Assembly (NCBI GenBank): GCA_963930775.1
Contig: OZ005692.1
Span: 5,008,135-5,072,134, forward strand
Source: Cliona cf. orientalis
Lineage: Eukaryota > Porifera > Demospongiae > Clionaida > Clionaidae
DNA: 64,000 bases
Direction of reading: 5' to 3'
Notes under the pieces: generated by a model
Database searches by the model: none
What the model was told of the DNA's origin: nothing
The model's input: the letters and a program-made list of their open reading frames with translations, nothing else
Part shown: positions 4,188-49,644 of the stretch, piece by piece
Numbering within the stretch: position 1 is the stretch's first letter
How the letters are laid out: every line of letters begins with the position of its first letter
Position numbers and translations under genes: made by a program

Positions 4188-7100
4188 TTATGTACATGTA
4201 CTCTTACCTAGACTGCCTAGCAGTAGCAGTTTGAGGAGAGTACTCCATGAGAGAATCAAGAACACGAAAGTCACAGGAATGATAACCATCATCACAAACC
4301 AGAACAGCATATTGAACCAAAGTAGCCATTTCTTTGTATCTGAAGGTGGCTGTTGAACTTTACCAGGGAACATGCCATTTTGCATGAAATACTCATAAGC
4401 CTCATCCTACAGTAAAAAGGTATACTGTATGTAGCGTATAGTACAAGTGCAGTGAGTTGTTGTGTCATGTGACAATCATGTGACCCATTAACTTACGTAC
4501 CTTGTGTTGGTACAGCTTGATGCAGTATGAATTGAGTTCATCGTGAGTCTCTGGTAACTCGTCCATTGGAATACGCCTGAATAAGAAAAGTAGGCATAGT
4601 AAAGATGGTTTATGCTATAAATAATTATTATACCTAGCTAGCCTTGCACAGCTTCTTCCCATCTTTCAGTGTGCAAACTGAAAAATTGGGGATAAGCCTA
4701 CATTCCAAATTAAAAATATGGGAATGGGCCTTGGGATGAAGCTACATGTACATGTACATGTAGATGCTTACCTCATGTACCAGTAGAGGTTGATTTTGTT
4801 GCCGAGGAACAGGTGAATGAAACTGGGGATGTACTTCTGAGGACAGTTGGGGTAGGCAAAGCCAACGTCATAGAGAGCCTTGAATTTAGCTATAGGAGGT
4901 AGAATGCATAAATTTTACAATGTACATCCACTTAACTCTCTCTCTCACACACACACACACACATGTACAAACTCTCATGGCCCATAATTATAATCAAACC
5001 CACATGCATCAAATCTTGCCCATTATACATAGCAGAGTTCACAGCTGCTGCCTATACGAACCTCTCCCTTAATTAATACGCACGTATAACGTACATACTT
5101 CCAGCCTTGAGATTTTCTGCCAGCGTGGCGAAGCCTTTTGTCCGAGGGAAGAGGTGGTGCTTGAGGACGGGGAGGCCCTTGTTCCTGGCATACTGACACC
5201 CTCTCTCGTACTTCTCTGTCGTGAATCGAGTACCCTCACAGAATATACACACCTGCATATTGGTGTACATGTGTGTGCGTGTATGTGTGTATGCATGTGG
5301 TAGGGAAGAGCATAATTATGAAGTTTAGACATGCATGTAGCTAGTTGATTAGCTTTTTTTAATTACCGGGATGATTTAGCGAACATGGAAAGAAGTACAT
5401 GTAGGTTATATTTCTATACTACACTTGTTCATAGAGGCCTGTACCTAGTACACTCCAACTCACAAGTATGGGGAAGGGATAAGTCTCCCAGATTTTGGAA
5501 AACTTTGTGATGTTTCCTTTGTCCTTGGCATAGTTTCGAGAGAGAAAGGGGCACTCTAGACTCCAGAGCAGCTGCCCAAACCCAGGCACATAGAACACTG
5601 ACCACTTGGGAAGGCTACGAAATCTCTGGGGTGGGATGGATAAGGGTGGCAAAAGACACAGTTTATAAATTAACCTATCGAGCTCCATATGATGGTTTGG
5701 TTATGGGTGTAGTACATGTACATGTTGTATAATTATGAAAGAAAGTTGCAATTTGGATAGGAAGTGTTTTTGTGCAGCTCTAGAAGGCCGTTTGTTCTAT
5801 GTACATGTACATGTATACAGCTGTAATAGAGAGGTGGCTGCTTTCATTAAAGAGGCAGTATATAATAATAATGATTATCATTTACAGCTTGAGCTATTAC
5901 ATGTACATGTAAGTGGCAGGATATGTTACAGTAATAACAGGAGCAGATGCTCCTGCTCATACACAGCGTGGCTCGCCTGGTAATAAGGAGGTTGCCTCAC
6001 ACAGTGACCACTATTAATACATGTACATAGGTCAAATTTCACATAGAGAGTCCCTATGGTTGTTAAATTAATTTTACAAACTTTACTGTAGTACTTAAAC
6101 TTCTATGAACATTGAAATGTTTTGGTCCGTGGACTTTATCAATCAAGATGTTTCAATGTTCATGCATGACGTTTAAGTTTGAGTACAATGATACAGTCAT
6201 TATAGTTCAACAAGTAACTTTAGAGAGTGCCTACTTTGAATTTGAGCCATGCCAAAGGCACGATTGAGTTAGATGCCTATTCTATCATAGATTATATATT
6301 CTCCTATGATTCTATAGAGCCTTGAAAACCTCAAAAGTAAATTATTACTTTCACTGCTTACGTGGAGAAAGCTGTATCTGATTGCAACGATGCATGCTGC
6401 CACCCAGTCCAGGTCGCCACGGTGACTGAGTGTAACTAGACAGAACTCCTTGCCCAAGTTCTTATACGTCTCGTCATCCCCAAACTGTGTGATATTAATC
6501 TCCGCCCACTCAGTTGAGATCCACACTATTTCTGCATTATTCCATACAGCACTAGTAGGGGTGTGTTAACTGGTTTGTATCCCCACTGTTGTAATAGCAC
6601 TACAAGTGCATGTGGTGTCTGAGTCTGACCATTGGGCCAGGTACCTGTAGTAGTCACCTGTACCACAGGGCAATATCCAGTATATTGCCCTGGTGGTACC
6701 TTTGATCTATGTCATAGGTGGGATACAAGAAAAGATTGCAGCACTTGCATGGGTGTAGATAACTTTTTGTAGTGTGTGTGTGTGGGGGGGGGGGGGGGGG
6801 GGCTTGTGTTGCCACACCTAATTTTGTGAACACTCCTACTTATTAGGAGATTGTCACCCTAGCAGTGGTGTTATAAATAAATTAAGTGGCTCGTCCCTTT
6901 TTTGCATTGAAAATGAAAGTATTATCTACACCCTTGACTTGTCGATATTTAAACACTTTCTGAGATAGTTATTATAGTGCAATATTTTCATGGATAAAAC
7001 AAGAAGAGATTAATAATGATAAACTCTTGATGTTAATGCCAGCCAAATTAATAATATTAATTATCATGAAACTGTGTTCATCAATAACACTGTAGATCGT

Positions 7101-39975: not shown

Positions 39976-40208
39976 CATGCCATTATTGTAGCCATAACGA
40001 CGTATACCGCCCGCCTCTCCTTTTGGGGATGAGCCGGCCCTGGAGGTGGGCAGCAGCAGCGGCCTGCATTGCTCTGATTTGCGCCAGGATAGGAGCATGA
40101 TGATATGAGCATTTATTACAGTAGCAACCCCATAATAATTAGCATATCGGAGGCTTTTGGGGGTATACCACTGGGGGCGGAGCCTCCAGGGACTGGCCGG
40201 CTCAGATC

Positions 40209-40311
40209 CACCCGATTCTCGCGAATTTTTCCGGGTAACTACCTATTAGTTGTTACCGTTATCGCGAGGTAATGCCCGTGTCACATGTGAACATATTACC
40301 GTAAATATCCA
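40209..40311 (+). repeat. Left TIR of the KDZ transposon
   Basis: About 103 bp, the inverted counterpart of 49,285-49,387, ending near 'accgtaaatatc'. The transposase ATG follows about 110 bp later. Confidence 0.88.
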
Positions 40312-40418
40312 ATAAAGAGAATTTATAGAAATATTGTCGCTTATGATCAGCGTGCGTACGTACGTACGTACGTAGTCCAGCTGTGGTGTGTGGTTCCAGC
40401 CATCAGCTGATTGCGAGA

Positions 40419-43400
40419 ATGAATCGCTTACGAAGGAAGCGTAAGCCAGACTCAGTGAGGCTAAACCTAGTGACTTCCCGCACACGTCGTGGACAAGGCA
40501 AAATCAAGATCTCTCGTGTATCTGTTCCACTAATATTACCTGAATCATCCCAAGGTGGTCCGAACCCTAATAGTACCACCGCACATCGTGGGGCTGAAGA
40601 ATTGGATTTGCACCTCAGTGACCTACCTGATGAAATGGATTTAAGTTGTTTGCATAATGAACAGGGCACGTTAACTACAGCACAGCGGTACAGCAAAAAG
40701 AGAACCCATGAGGACCGAGAAGAAAAGGCTGCAGAATCATGGGGTAGATTACGAAGGGGATTACTCGCATCATTGATTGAATCATGCTGTCATCCATCAG
40801 AAGTACCATGCTGTATGTGCTCTGCAGAATCATCACAAGTGTATTGCCAAGATTGTGGTGGATACATGTGTATTCAATGTACACAGAAGTTACACACTTA
40901 CATCAACATCTTCCATGTGCCTGTTATGTGGGATCCCATGGTAAATGCTCTTCGATGCATTATTGTGTCAAACTTAAACTTAACTTGTAGGGGGAAGTTT
41001 ACATTTCATACCCCTTGCCAGTGAGTACACTTTCAATGAAAGAACACCAGTGTACTACTTCGTACTTTCGGGACATAATATGCATTGGTGGATTAGGTAA
41101 AGAGTGAACATAATACAATTAAATTTTTATGCTACGATAACTATTTTACATGTAGGCACACAACGTCGAGTCCAGTTTCAGTTTTGTGGCTGCTTCAGTG
41201 AAGCTGAAATTTTAATTAAACTGGGCTACTTTGCTGCTACACCTCAGCGTCCACAACTTGCCTTTCAGTTTCAGCTTCTAGACCTCTTGGAAGCATTACT
41301 TTTAGAGTGTCAGGTATCAGTTAAGGACTTCACTGCTGCTCTAGATTATATATCCAGGTGTCCCCTTCAGGTGACCTAAAAAAGAAAAATTAAACTCACA
41401 TTAATATATACATCTATTAATATTATAGATAAATGAAAAGAAAGATGTGAAGTTTTACAAAGTCATGCTTAACTGCTTTGAGGAGTATAGGTTGTTGTCA
41501 CTGTACATTGCCCTCTCTATTCCATATTGTGTGTGTATAGATATTTGAAGAATGAGCTCCGACATATGCGTGTTGTGTGTCCTGAGCATACTGATGGCAC
41601 CGAGTGTCCAGCGTGTCCCAAGGTATGAGTTTTGGTTCATCCTGTGTTCACCTGCAGTACATTGTATGTTGAGTACCTGTAGCATAATTTTATTCTTTAT
41701 GTATAAAGTGAAGGTACGCTTGTTTTGGCTATTGACGGTCACTTTGGTCTATGCCGGAAAAAAAGTGCCGGAAAGAGTGTAAGACCACCACTTCATGTTG
41801 GTGTATACTTTGAACCTCAAGAGAAGATTGATGAATTTGTGAGTACCTACACCGTGGGAAAGGCAACAGCAGTAAAAGTACTTCCACTATGCAATATACA
41901 TAAGATTGTACAACTGTACATGACCTTTCTTTCATGCAGGAGTGCAATGAATTTCTTGCAGGTAATCTGCTAAGATCAAAGACACGATATAAAGCCTTAG
42001 ATGAGACAGGTGTCATTGGACTCGTGTGTCGTCACGAGTTTCCGTATCGATTATATAATCTCCATCACGGTGAACGGTTAGTGTATATTATACATGTACG
42101 TGTTTATATAGCTATCTTTATGACTGGTTCTATAATATTCTTATAGGATCTCTTATATTGTTTATGCTCTGGAGATGATCAAGGAGCGATCAAACCAACT
42201 CTCTCAAGTGCTACTACTGTATGATGTAGCCTGCCTTCTCAAACGTCATTTACAGGTGTTCACACACATGTAACTATTATTACATGCATTCTAGACACCT
42301 TGATCATAATTATGTAGGGAAAAGGAAAGACCGACCTTCTTAATTTTTTTAGGCTGGCAGTTCCCGTATTTCATGTATATGGGCACAAAGTGGATTGCCA
42401 GGTATTCCACTGATACTGCTGTATAGATGCTACAAAGGATAAATTTTGTAACTTGGACATACAATGTCATGTAGCCACATTGATAATGTAATTGTATGAT
42501 TATTTGGTATTGCTAGATGTTGATGAGTCCACGCAACAAAGATGGATTCGCTTTGTCAGACGGAGAGACATGTGAGAGGCTGTGGTCATTCATGAGAAGG
42601 TTTTCTCGTATGACCAAAGAAATGCGACCTTCTCATCGAATTGATATACTCACAGATGCCCTACTTCACTTTGCCAGGCTCACTGTCGTTAGCCTAAGTA
42701 AGGAAGGATTAGTGGTACATCTTATGAAAGTCAACAGGGTTTCTAGCTAATGATAGTGAGTGACCCCCTCCTTTAACTGCTTCTAGGTTGCTATATTTAC
42801 TGGATTTGCATGGGTGTACACTGGTGTTTAGTGATTTCTGGTATACATGTTGTACATGTAATTGCATACCACATGTAACAATGTGTACATGTAGGGACTT
42901 TGCTTCCTAAACGATTGACAAAAGCTGAAAAAATTGCTGAAGATTCTCAAAGAAAGCTCTCTGAACTCTTCGCTAACTCCCCAGGTCAGAAATTGTTACC
43001 ACAGTTGCATGTACATTGTTTATTGGTGCTACATTATTAAACACTGCACATAATACTGATAATTATTATTAATGAAGTGGACTTTGGAGAAAAGGAAATC
43101 TTAGATTGGCTCGACAGTGAACAAAAAGCACATCATACCAGAGGTTCAACCCTTTTGTGTGTGATGACTACACTAGTCTAGTAACAGTTACTACATACTT
43201 ATAATTAGATTCTGATCAAAGGACAAAAGTTTTTGAAAAGCTAGGAGTTGCAGCCCGAGAACGGTGGTTTATGCTGATACTGAAAGCCAAGTTTGCAGGT
43301 TTTTGTACTACATTAATTTTGTGTGTGCATACTCATCGTGATAACAATAATATTCATAGAGGGACATAGCATGGCTTCTCGTCTTTCACGCGCAATTACA

Positions 43401-44685
43401 ACTGAATCCAAAAGGATGAAATCTCTTCTCCTTGAGTACAACAGCATTGTTCCTGTAGAGGATCAGCTTTCATGGGAAGATGTAACAGATTTGTCCTCAT
43501 CAATCTGGCTTGCTCCTCAGCGGGATGATGACCTACCCGTTCCTAGGTCAGTACGGCTTGCAGCTATTGATGCTCTGATGAAGAAGAAACGAGCAATTGA
43601 GGAACAAGACTTGTTGAAAGTGGAGATGGAAAATGTCGTACGCTTTCACCTTCAGCAACATGCTTTGCTAGGTAGCACTATTTCCCTCCTCCAGTCTGTA
43701 CCATCATTGTTCAACCGGGGGGCTGTGTGTCTTCTCAAGATAAAGCAGCACCAATACAAAACGATGATAAAGGGTTACATTCAGTCATTTCCAAGGTCAC
43801 TAAATATCCCAGAAATCCCTTTTTGTACAGAGGATTGTACAACAGATGTTTCCAGCTCATTACCGTCCACTCAATCCAACATCATCGAATCATCTGACGA
43901 TGAGGAAGATGGAGACTCGCCTTGCTTGAACCACACGAATGATCTTGATAGTTCTAGTGATGACAGTAAGTCCAATGAGAGGTCACTATTACCTGAACAA
44001 GGTAAACTGCCAGTGTATATAATATTATTACAATTATGCAGATGTGTATCTGCTGATCTCCGTACATTAATAATATGCTTTGTCTGCCTGTAAGCAGAAT
44101 CATGTACCACTACACACGCACAGTGACTACAACCACAGTTTCCAGCATCCCTTCTCCATCCGAATCAGATAGTGACAGTGGCAGTGGTAGTGAAGAATTT
44201 AAACAAGCTCGTGATCGAATCAGATATGTGAAGGAGAAATTGGAGAGAGAAGAATTCCTACATGTAGGTCCTATAAACAATCATTCATAAGTATTGATTA
44301 CTTATTGTTTTGTATGTATAGAGCATCAGAATGAAGGAACTCGGAATGAAGGAACTCGAAGATATTGCTGCAGAGGAAAGAAAGGCTACAGCTCATGTGA
44401 TAATTGAGGGAACATCTCGAGATCAAGTGATGCCTATGTCTATAGCTGGTAAGTCATAATAATAGCTGTAACAATGCAGCATAATAATAATAATAAATCC
44501 ACGATCACACAGCTCAAGCCAAGCGGAGTGGAGTTTATTTGCCACCCAAACGGACCATGTATCTGCATCGTAGTAAGGAAGACCGAGAAAGAATAGTTAG
44601 ACTGTCTAGAGAGAACATACAGCGTGAGAAAGTGGCTGAACGTTTAGCAAAGGGACCATACTTTAAGAAAAGTTGTAGCCAATGA
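40419..44685 (+). CDS. KDZ (Kyakuja-Dileera-Zisupton) transposase with CxC2-like N-terminus
   Basis: This is a cut-and-paste transposase acting on the TIRs of this element. About 16-17 exons lie at roughly 40419-40940, 40991-41020, 41156-41368, 41430-41500, 41542-41622, 41709-41839, 41940-42078, 42147-42255, 42318-42401, 42517-42699, 42895-42986, 43079-43140, 43208-43300, 43361-44002, 44124-44263, 44322-44450 and 44512-44685, giving about 950 residues. The N-terminus has paired cysteines (CCMCSAE..CQDCGGYMCIQC), then KLHTYINIFHVP, as in CxC2 clusters attached to KDZ enzymes. The RNase-H-fold acidic residues sit in AIDGHFGLCRKKSAG, LLYDVACLLKRH and DGETCERLWSFMRRF. FHVYGHKVDCQ and TKEMRPSHRIDILTDAL are hallmark blocks. 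The C-terminus is coiled and basic. Small exon edges are approximate. Confidence 0.9.
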
Positions 44686-44766
44686 TGTGTGTCATAATTA
44701 TTATTATTCTGAAAAGGATTGACATCATTATATACAATATTATTATACTATTAATTTCAATACATC

Positions 44767-47605
44767 CTAAGTAAGTGAGTCCACTTTCCAGGCGGTAATA
44801 AGTCCACTCATTAAGTAATCATCGTCGTCATCAAAGGGCCCTTTGAACTGAAGTGGAATTTCAAGTGTTTCATCACACATCTCCTTGATCGAGAGTTTCA
44901 CATATCCATTCGGTATTTCTGTTCCATGTAGTTGTGTGCCTTCCATTACAGAAGCCTTGGCTACTGGCTTTCCTTCGTGGACAATAGTAACGATCGATCC
45001 TGTACTTGGTTTCTTAAAGTTTGGCTTCTTAATCTTATTCAAGGAAGACTTTGGCAAAACTACAGGCGCTGAGTGGAGAAGTGAGTCATAGACATCCTTG
45101 ATGTCTCCAGCAGCAGATAGCATTGTATTTGTGTACACAGCTTTCGGTCTTGGAGGGACTTTTATAGGTTCATTTAGAGGTTTTGAGTACGAGTGTTCAA
45201 TCAAATGTGCTGGCAAGATTGCTGCACCTATATAAAGCACACCATGAGTGGTGAATAATAATATTATTATGATGACTAGTGTCAGAAAGGCAATTTGCAT
45301 ACCAGTAAATGCTATGTCTTCTGCAGCATCCACAATGCGTCTTAGGTTTTCAGTACTAAAAGATGATGGTGGACCAAATTTAAGACCCTTTGGAAAACCC
45401 TTAACACACGAAGGTGAAATAGCAGAGTAAGGAACTCTTGCTTTTGGCTTGCCAACTGCTGCAGCTGTACCATAACATGCATAATAATGATAATAATGTA
45501 TGGGGAGAAGTGCAAACATGTACCACTCACCATACTTCAAATTCAGTATACTTTGAACTGCTTTTCGTAGATTTTCCCATTCCACTCGACCTCTTCCACT
45601 ACTTGCAGCTATGGCCGTCCTTTCTATAGTTTATGCATGTATATTACGTATAATCACTAATTGAGTCTTATGAAGGGTATATAGAAAGGTATTTGCATCA
45701 GAGTTTGCTATGCAGATACATCATGATAGTACAAACATGTGAACTAAGACATACCAGCATTCACAGATAGGAGAAACTCTTCAGGTACACGGGGATGCTG
45801 AACAAAGTACTTCCTTCCCAGGTCGGTACCGCCACAATAGTGGTTTTGTCCATGACACACAACATACATCACCTGAATCTGACACTGCTCAGCCCAGCAA
45901 GCCTACACATTACAATGACAACAATGACAATGTTATGCATTTCATAATGTTACAGTGGAACCCCTCTGCAAGGACGATCGAGTGCATGAACAATGAGGAT
46001 ACTATACTTATACATGTACATATATTATATGCACATGTACGACATATCACATAATATTATATTATACATACACAAAAATTTCTTAATCAAAACACTTCAA
46101 GACTAGTAGTGATGGTGTAGTATCAGGCATACACAGCTAAATGTATATTCTACATATACGTAGCCGGAAAAGAAGTTGCATATTATATATGTTAAAGTGA
46201 AATATACATGTATACCATCCCTGTGTGGGTAAAAAAATTGAAGGACAAAGGACAAACAAGAAGGTGGCACAAGAGAGTAGGTACATGTATGAAGTTACAT
46301 GTATGTACATACATTAGATTCCAAATTTCTAATTATCCGGGAAGCTTCCTTCCAAGATTTCTCTGGTTGACTCCTAATACCATTGGTGCCCTCTTTAGCA
46401 CGTTCATAATAAGGGTCCTTTTCCTCTTCAGACATTTGGCGCCATCTTTCACCAACAATTTTATTCCTCTCTGCATGGGACTGAATCGATCTTCCCTCTA
46501 TCAGACAAAAAAAAAAAACAGTAAGCCAAATACCTTGAGCATAAAAAACCTGCAGCCAAACAATAATTATGTACGATGTCATAATAATTCTAATAATACA
46601 TGTACATTACGCAGTACAGGTGTGGTATATACAGTGGAATCCCTCTATAGTGGCCAACATTAGGAAATGAAGTTCTGGCCATTATTTAAAGGGGTGGCCT
46701 ATCTCAGGGGTTTTCCTGTTATTATGACGAACGTGAGTGGCTGCCATAGATGGGATGGGCGCTCATCAGGGGTGGCCATTAAACTATACTTGTTATCAAC
46801 TATACAGTGTAGTAAATACACAAAAGTGCATAAACATACCCTTTGATTGATAATATTCACCAGTGAAGATGTTGTAAGCATTAGGCTTTGTAACTTTTCG
46901 TGGGGGTTTGATATTCTCCTTTCCTTCACTGTCTGAAAGGAATCTTTTCTTGCCACTACTCCGCTTGTTGCCAATCCAGTTCTGTAGTTACATGTACATA
47001 CATGTACACATGACGTGTATAAGGATTACTAAAATAATATAAGATAGTACAAAGATAGCAGTAACATGTTGCATTACAGGTGAGGTAAGTAGACATGCAT
47101 GCACATGCATGTATACAATGACACATAATTAGTGTTAGCTAAAAAATAAATACTTTCTTGCATGCAATTAATAACTCTATTGAAAATCCAAGGCCTAATC
47201 CGATTGCTATACACCTACATATACACACATGTACACAAAACACCGGGCACACTGTACATGCATTATGCCGTAATGTACGTTTGTACATGATACCACTGTA
47301 CATGTACTTCCTGGTCTCAGCAGTTTGAAGAGGGGGCAGGGAGATCCCCTCAGCCCTATGTAGAAAAAGCCCAAGTACAAAGTGGAGGGTGGACACCCTG
47401 GGTATTCTCATCAACGGCCCAATTTCCCCGCTCCGTGTATGTACTAACATGAGGCACAGGCCAAAGTCTGAATTATATAATAATAATAATTATTATACTC
47501 CTCATTGGTGCCCCCCCCCCCCCCCACAATAATATTATACTTAGTCTTATAACCAGGCCCTGGGTTTGTTACATGTACGCATACATGTACTGTCACGCTG
47601 TCAAC

Positions 47606-47636
<31 letters not shown>

Positions 47637-49215
47637 AGAATAAATTGTGGTCCCCCCGGACTGTCCACTGCGCCGTATTCGGTCCCCCCAGGACAAACCC
47701 TGGCGACTAACACTACCATACAAACCCTTGAGACTAACCCTGATAACCATTTATACCTGAACCCAGCCCCTAATCCCTCTCGTAATTGGCAGGGGGACTA
47801 TGCATAGTTGCTATGGACAGTCCAGGGGGACTGCTTTCAGGGGGGACCACTTATAGTATGACAGTATGCACCTATTTGCCACAATACCACTTGTATACGT
47901 AGTTCAACTTTCATTCTACTCAGATACTAATAGTATAATAGGGAAATGCACAGCATTGTGGGGCGAGCCTGAGCGACAGTGATCATGCACAGGGATTTAT
48001 GTTGTGCCATGCCCTTGAACTACAAACTATAGGCTGTATGATGCACGCTCCTAGACTGGCCTCTTTCTCTTCTGTCCACTCTGTGGCTAGTAAATTCTGT
48101 CTCTTACAGCTTTTGAGCTGAGGCTCTGATTGATAACAAACTCTATTTCGCTCTTGCCACCCTCTGAAGCCTCATTTCTGAGCTTTTCGCTGGTTTATGC
48201 TTTGTTCAGCGTTCATAGCGCGAGCAATCAGATGCAGAGCCTGAATGTAAATTTGCAAGTCGTTGAATTAGAGCAGCATATATACGGAATGATGGACGTT
48301 GGGCGGGGCGTAACTAAGGACCGACGTACCATATATCTCAGTCGCGCAGTGCATTACCGTTTAATTGGGGCTCGCTCAGGCTCGCCCCAATTAAAATTTA
48401 TTAACAGTCATTGAAATGCTATATAGCAGTCTACCTAGCCCTTGCTTAAGACCCTTTCATAATGAAGCCAGTTGAGCGTACATTGTTTTATCTTAAACTG
48501 AAAGTCGAAAAGAAAGTGGCAATGCCAGTTCACAAAGCAACGAAAACCTTTGGGTGTAAGCACAAATTTATTATTGTGATTTATTGACGACAGATGCAAG
48601 AACACAACGCAGAGGAACGCAAGGATAGGGTCCACAAGTGTCAACACAAGGTGATACAACGCAACAATTATTTAGCGACATAATATTATGAATCGGCCTT
48701 AAGGATACAACTGCTAGCTCAGTATGGGTAGACTACCTACCGCTATTATTACCTCACCACCACCATTTCAATTATTTCAATATAGTGGGTCCTTCGATTC
48801 TCCCACCCAGTGGCCTACATGTATAAATTAACACATTGGCATCAACTATAGCCTTCCCTCCAGCATCTCTTTTAGGGTCAAGTGGCATAAACGGCACCCA
48901 AATTTTTGCGTGCTGTTGTGACAGGTTCAGGTCACCGGTATCTTCTATGGCTGAAAAATTTCGCGGTGCCGTTCTTGCCACTTGATCAGCTTGAGTTCAA
49001 TGTATGTGCTATGTATTAAACAGTATATACATACATCCTCTTGTATGGCCCCACCGTACCTTGATCACTGAAACGTCGAGCTGTAGCTCCTCTGCAAGTG
49101 TGCCAATAGCTGCGGAGTTGGCTGCACCAGTTGATACCAAACCATCAGAATACGCAGCTTCCAATGAAGCCCTCTGCTCGGGAGTGAACACTGTCTTCTT
49201 ACGTAGACTGCTCAT
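44767..49215 (-). CDS. Homeodomain plus HMG-box protein carried by the KDZ transposon
   Basis: Seven exons (49215-49060, 46981-46840, 46497-46313, 45902-45755, 45623-45531, 45464-45303, 45227-44767) have GT-AG borders and total 1,347 nt, exactly 449 codons in frame. Residues ~5-65 form a homeodomain (KKTVFTPEQRASLE, then VIK|NWIGNKR across the first splice, with W48, N51 and R53 equivalents kept). It has four extra residues in the helix 1-2 region. Residues ~85-150 form an HMG box (KVTKPNAYNIFTGEYY, GERWRQMSEEEKDPYYERAK). The rest (~160-448) includes a Cys/His segment (CHGQNHYCGG) and an unrecognised conserved-looking C-terminal domain ending ITAWKVDSLT. It is predicted to be nuclear and DNA-binding, perhaps recognising the TIRs or controlling the transposase. 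The first intron is 2.08 kb. Confidence 0.85.
47640..47830 (-). repeat. Dispersed repeat beside poly-C tracts in intron 1
   Basis: Inverted relative of 34,300-34,530, with degenerate 'aaccctggcgactaac' units. C runs lie at about 47,512-47,526 and 47,608-47,636. The antisense poly-Gly frame here is an artefact. Confidence 0.55.
47957..48395. mobile_element. Possible TIR element within intron 1 of the homeodomain/HMG gene
   Basis: GGGGCGAGCCTGAGCGA (about 47,960) and TCGCTCAGGCTCGCCCC (about 48,373-48,390) are inverted repeats about 430 bp apart. Related 'ctcgctcaggctcgcc'-type text occurs near 24,255 and 49,895. No target duplication was identified. Confidence 0.5.
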
Positions 49216-49284
49216 AGCGCTAGCGCGAGTGGCGTCGTACGTCCGATCAGATCCTGCACTGATTCAAAATTTCACCATCGATAT

Positions 49285-49387
49285 ATTAGATATTCGGTAT
49301 TATGTTCACATGTGACACGGGCATTACCTCGCGATAACGGTAACAACTAATAGGTAGTTACCCGGAAAATTTTGCGAGAACCGGGTG
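49285..49387 (-). repeat. Right TIR of the KDZ transposon
   Basis: Inverted counterpart of 40,209-40,311. The ATG of the homeodomain/HMG gene (49,215) lies 172 bp inside this end, so the TIR may carry its promoter. Confidence 0.88.
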
Positions 49388-49644
49388 TCAGATCACGTCT
49401 GTGAAGACGGAGATTGACTGATTGAGAGAGGGAGGGTATAGTGTGGGTGGGAACTTTTTCGTTAGCTGGCAGAGCTTCTTCTTGCAACTTGATGGTGCCA
49501 CGTAAATTGCGCAACTGACGTACCTAGCAGCTTAGCCATCAAGTATCCACGCCCAACAATTATGTCATGCGCATGCGTATCTTTCTGTTCTACGCATGCG
49601 CAGCTGCAGTGCGAACTAGTACTCGTCGATTAACTGCGTTTAAC

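Follow-up and report, generated by a model that had tools for sequence, protein, structure and literature searches.

Platyfish Zisupton, a transposon of the KDZ (Kyakuja-Dileera-Zisupton) superfamily, has a single large coding sequence. Basidiomycete KDZ elements reportedly carry TET/JBP genes and a gene for a divergent HMG-domain protein (Iyer et al. 2014), and we know of no homeodomain or GTF2I repeat described in them. Here, we analyzed a stretch of 64,000 nucleotides from the sponge Cliona cf. orientalis (contig OZ005692.1, positions 5,008,135 to 5,072,134; hereafter, the window), which contains a 9.18-kb KDZ element. Like the basidiomycete elements as reported, this element has a transposase accompanied by an accessory gene with an HMG domain; unlike platyfish Zisupton, it has a separate, convergent gene encoding a homeodomain, an HMG box, and a GTF2I-like repeat (the partner gene). 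The element has defined borders, and within them a homeodomain-HMG-GTF2I adaptor accompanies a KDZ transposase. The KDZ domain, CxC clusters, multi-exon transposase, and terminal inverted repeats (TIRs) are common to this element and to described KDZ transposons such as platyfish Zisupton and rust-fungus Dileera, according to PMC9297572 and PMC12730594. An 8-bp target site duplication (TSD) is given for Zisupton and Dileera in PMC12730594, compared with 7 bp here, and in PMC9297572, Pristionchus Zisupton has TIRs and no TSD was detected. In fish, a link between CxC7 and an F-box is known (PMC12062965).

The borders of the window element were read from the sequence as follows.
40202-40208, no strand: left copy of the TSD (TCAGATC)
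40209-40306, + strand: left TIR with the terminus CACCCG; gapped homology continues to ~106 bp
49290-49387, - strand: right TIR
49388-49394, no strand: right copy of the TSD (TCAGATC)

The two TIR arms, of 98 nt each, were 94% complementary, and the 7-bp TSD was present at both ends. A multicopy host repeat (~39980-40208 and 49388-49540) surrounds the element, and 41 genomic matches were obtained with the joined flanks. When joined with one TCAGATC, the flanks aligned continuously to all four paralogous copies of this repeat that were fetched (contigs C2, C17, C18, and C6). As these host sites are uninterrupted and hold a single target, the borders are exact and all of the 9.18 kb, including the partner gene, is the insert. 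Therefore, we concluded that the window element is a genuine mobile DNA element, and a preceding sequence-only reading was right to describe a TIR/TSD-bounded unit of 9.18 kb with two convergent genes. These are a KDZ transposase on the + strand and its partner on the - strand. Four GGTAAY sites of alternating orientation were present in the TIR; the best 6-mer reached that count in 69 of 3000 shuffles, so the sites are a lead only.

The left terminus was used as the query against the source genome (217 Mb, 149 contigs). This search, in which counts are lower bounds, yielded at least 15 matches, comprising six full-length copies of this family (family A) with paired ends and three single ends (contigs C9, C7, and C13). 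The full-length copies were 9.2 to 11.7 kb long and located on contigs C4 (the window copy), C1, C11, C2, and C3 (C3a and C3b). Five of them had a perfect 7-bp TSD (TCAGATC, GCGATTC, GAACATT, TCGAGAG, and GGGAGAA), and in the C11 copy 5 of 7 positions matched. All six contained both genes, whether or not these were intact; copies without the second gene, or with ends elsewhere, were looked for among these six and none was found. No full-length copy had both genes intact in the gene models. The transposase model was open in C11, C2, and C3a and had a frameshift in C3b. The window and C1 copies had an intact partner. In C11 and C2, codon 103 of the partner was a stop; in C3a, the partner had a late frameshift; and in C3b, a 1.18-kb insertion interrupted it. 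The lone left end on C9 (locus 5001-5180) lost similarity, as judged by eye, after ~180 bp, and is either a fragment or a non-autonomous derivative. On C13, a TIR-like end (C13:2696046-2696170) with 72% identity to family A adjoined a homeodomain exon (locus 5199-5369) with 82% identity to the window partner, representing an older, partial relative.

The partner gene on the - strand is divided into seven exons between 49215 and 44767 and encodes 448 amino acids, and all six introns are GT-AG.
49060-49215, - strand: exon 1, start codon plus homeodomain helices 1 and 2
46840-46981, - strand: exon 2, helix 3 of the homeodomain (NWIGNKR) plus HMG box, part 1
46313-46497, - strand: exon 3, HMG box, part 2
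45755-45902, - strand: exon 4, middle segment possibly resembling the N-terminus of TFII-I proteins
45531-45623, - strand: exon 5, GTF2I-like repeat, part 1
45303-45464, - strand: exon 6, GTF2I-like repeat, part 2
44767-45227, - strand: exon 7, conserved C-terminal domain

In the Pfam search, the homeodomain was detected with an E-value of 1.4e-6 (28.4 bits; cut-off 22.9), and its helix 3 (NWIGNKR) fits the rule W-x-x-N-x-R. The HMG box matched HMG_box_2 (1.7e-9, 38.7 bits; cut-off 22.4), and the GTF2I-like repeat matched PF02946 over a single stretch (4e-10). Searched alone against PDB sequences, the GTF2I part matched repeats of human GTF2IRD1 (9.8e-9) and GTF2I (6.6e-8). The conserved middle segment, between the HMG box and the repeat, may resemble the N-terminus of human TFII-I proteins, and a conserved C-terminal domain followed the repeat. 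Hence, the description of the partner as a two-domain protein holds for the homeodomain and HMG box but had overlooked the GTF2I-like repeat, the middle segment, and the C-terminus. Relatives of the partner from other sources in the protein database numbered at least four with a single sequence and at least 17 with an alignment as the query; among the matches listed, 4 of 17 relatives from the alignment search carried a precomputed PF02946 label. When the window copy was compared with C11, C2, and C3a, the ratio of nonsynonymous to synonymous substitution rates (dN/dS) of the partner was 0.34-0.44 (13-15 differences) and that of the transposase was 0.31-0.40, with the C3a partner cut before its frameshift and C3b left out. 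The partner coding sequence was identical in the two youngest copies, and its constraint was about equal to that of the transposase. Long poly-C runs were present in partner intron 1 (47511-47534 and 47609-47642), and a nearby stretch varied in length between copies.

The + strand gene is a KDZ superfamily transposase, as had been proposed: it contains the KDZ domain PF18758 (2.2e-36, 126 bits; cut-off 26.6) and, N-terminal to this catalytic domain, the zinc clusters CxC1 (1.2e-12) and CxC2 (2.6e-7), and lies between TIRs. The model comprises 948 amino acids, provided that a lost acceptor is counted as spliced, and the Pfam scan covered its first 807 residues.
40419-44685, + strand: KDZ transposase gene, 16-exon model in the window copy (from Pfam domains and the exon model)
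40419-40986, 41156-41370, 41429-41490, 41541-41622, 41707-41838, 41940-42076, 42147-42255, 42318-42401, + strand: transposase exons 1-8
42517-42697, 42895-42984, 43078-43143, 43209-43298, 43360-43965, 44139-44263, 44322-44448, 44513-44685, + strand: transposase exons 9-16
41705-41706, + strand: lost splice acceptor of transposase exon 41707-41838 (AA in the window and C1 copies, AG in four of the six)
43977, no strand: deletion junction in the C-terminal tail of the transposase (802 bp missing compared with C1)

These two lesions contradict the sequence-only reading, in which both genes were undamaged. The next AG is located 2 bases past the lost acceptor, and with its use the exon would begin with TGA. 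The deleted segment of ~800 bp was kept in all five other full-length copies, and the frame stays open after the deletion. Identity between the window and C1 copies was 99.97% in the left 3.77 kb and 99.7% in the right 5.4 kb. Their contigs and TSDs differ, and both have lost the acceptor. The simplest reading of this near-identity, the different TSDs, and the common acceptor loss is that at least one of the two copies transposed after the loss, using the transposase of another copy, i.e., in trans; gene conversion or leaky splicing may account for it instead. Many of the giant DNA transposons of Ectocarpus (KDZ, EnSpm, and Sola-1) bear extra genes and often a pseudogenised transposase, which is interpreted as movement in trans in PMC12477816.

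In the genome, 14 of 17 GTF2I-repeat matches were within 10 kb of a KDZ match (0.06 expected), or 15 when the family-A copy on C7 was included. The KDZ families that were read are a subset, covering a minority of the KDZ loci. Four diverged families had the GTF2I-type partner, and in two others (elements of 9.0 and 10.05 kb at C4:7.54 Mb and C2:9.69 Mb) the partner combined a weakly homeodomain-like N-terminus with an Ulp1-like protease and a PHD finger. In all six, the partner was convergent with the transposase. The partner divided with the transposase in the tree, and the transposase cores of families with the same partner architecture were 50-63% identical. The pairing is not a one-off but recurs across diverged KDZ families, and the two partner types suggest that KDZ families of one genome swap the C-terminal half of the adaptor gene. 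The HMG component of the pairing is not new, because HMG-bearing basidiomycete KDZ elements have reportedly been described. In the literature searched, HMG occurred with KDZ transposons only within a reference title; for KDZ together with GTF2I, no paper was found there, with subscription journals outside its scope.

As for function, we consider it probable that the N-terminus of the partner binds the DNA of its own element and that the C-terminus serves as a swappable effector. The homeodomain, in which W, N, and R of helix 3 are kept, and the HMG box would bind and possibly bend DNA, most likely the element's own termini. The effector half would be interchangeable between a TFII-I-like module and a SUMO-protease plus PHD module, which may provide two routes of action on host chromatin or transcription, in a role comparable to that of TET/JBP genes in fungal KDZ elements. 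It is possible, if rather doubtful, that the partner is a transposition cofactor only. As the Myb/SANT protein does in two-gene Harbinger elements, it would then bind the TIRs and bring in the transposase, and its C-terminal module would contact the transposase without any effect on the host. The constant arrangement and common division of the two genes, and the fact that HMG and homeodomain are DNA-binding folds, are consistent with this role, and two-gene Nuwa/Harbinger elements with a Myb/SANT DNA-binding protein offer a precedent (PMC12730594). However, the Ulp1-like protease and PHD finger at the corresponding C-terminal position look like chromatin or SUMO effectors and less like transposase contacts. 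Chance nesting of two unrelated elements might be considered, since repeats are common in this genome and C3b carries additional insertions, but the six full-length copies share both genes between the same TIRs, each with its own TSD, and the uninterrupted host sites lack the entire 9.18 kb; we regard nesting as already refuted.

The origin of the partner was considered separately. A gene on contig C17 (~94.6-95.4 kb) combines the middle segment with a GTF2I-like repeat, and in the surrounding 14 kb (C17:88500-102500) no long inverted repeat was found and the best KDZ match by tblastn (E 0.45) was unconvincing; the gene is possibly a domesticated or an original host TFII-I-like gene. The sequence-only reading had listed a captured host factor among its possibilities. 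As a recent event, with a host regulator carried as a passenger useless to the element, this would fit the animal-type domains, the broken or interrupted partner in four of six full-length copies, and the KDZ-less C17 gene. Such a capture is nevertheless very improbable, because the same partner architecture is found in diverged KDZ families of this genome, and the identical coding sequence and transposase-like constraint of the partner also speak against it. An ancient capture, in which, early in animal evolution, an ancestral KDZ element acquired a host TFII-I-like gene and kept it as an accessory while the host gene survived as the C17 gene and vertebrate TFII-I, deserves serious attention even though we would not bet on it. 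This is a claim on origin and can be compatible with the adaptor function proposed above. It agrees with the C17 surroundings and with the GTF2I repeats of vertebrate host transcription factors in PDB entries, whereas the domain is mostly transposon-borne here and one genome cannot give the direction. Conversely, we tentatively suggest that a GTF2I-bearing KDZ adaptor gene was the ancestor of the vertebrate TFII-I family and that the C17 gene is a parallel or early domestication. The data hint at a common ancestor of the TFII-I family and these elements, the direction being unproven.

Placing the GTF2I-like repeat, known mainly from vertebrate TFII-I proteins, on transposons makes the origin of the TFII-I family testable by phylogeny. 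If that family did arise from a transposon gene, GTF2I and GTF2IRD1 of the Williams-Beuren region would be domesticated accessory genes. Caution is also advised with invertebrate genomes, in which an annotated GTF2I may represent a KDZ element. The partner shares the GTF2I-like repeat with the TFII-I family (GTF2I, GTF2IRD1, and GTF2IRD2), and the N-terminus of human TFII-I proteins may correspond to the segment before the repeat. The partner differs in having one repeat instead of several, in its fusion to a homeodomain and an HMG box, and in being transposon-borne; with a single repeat, it is not classed as a TFII-I member. The known transposon link of GTF2IRD2 is a fusion with hAT (Charlie8), a transposase other than KDZ (PMC10641963). 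Nuwa and related PIF/Harbinger elements resemble the window element in pairing a transposase with a separate DNA-binding protein (PMC12730594), but differ in the transposase superfamily, the Myb/SANT partner, and the 3-bp TSD.
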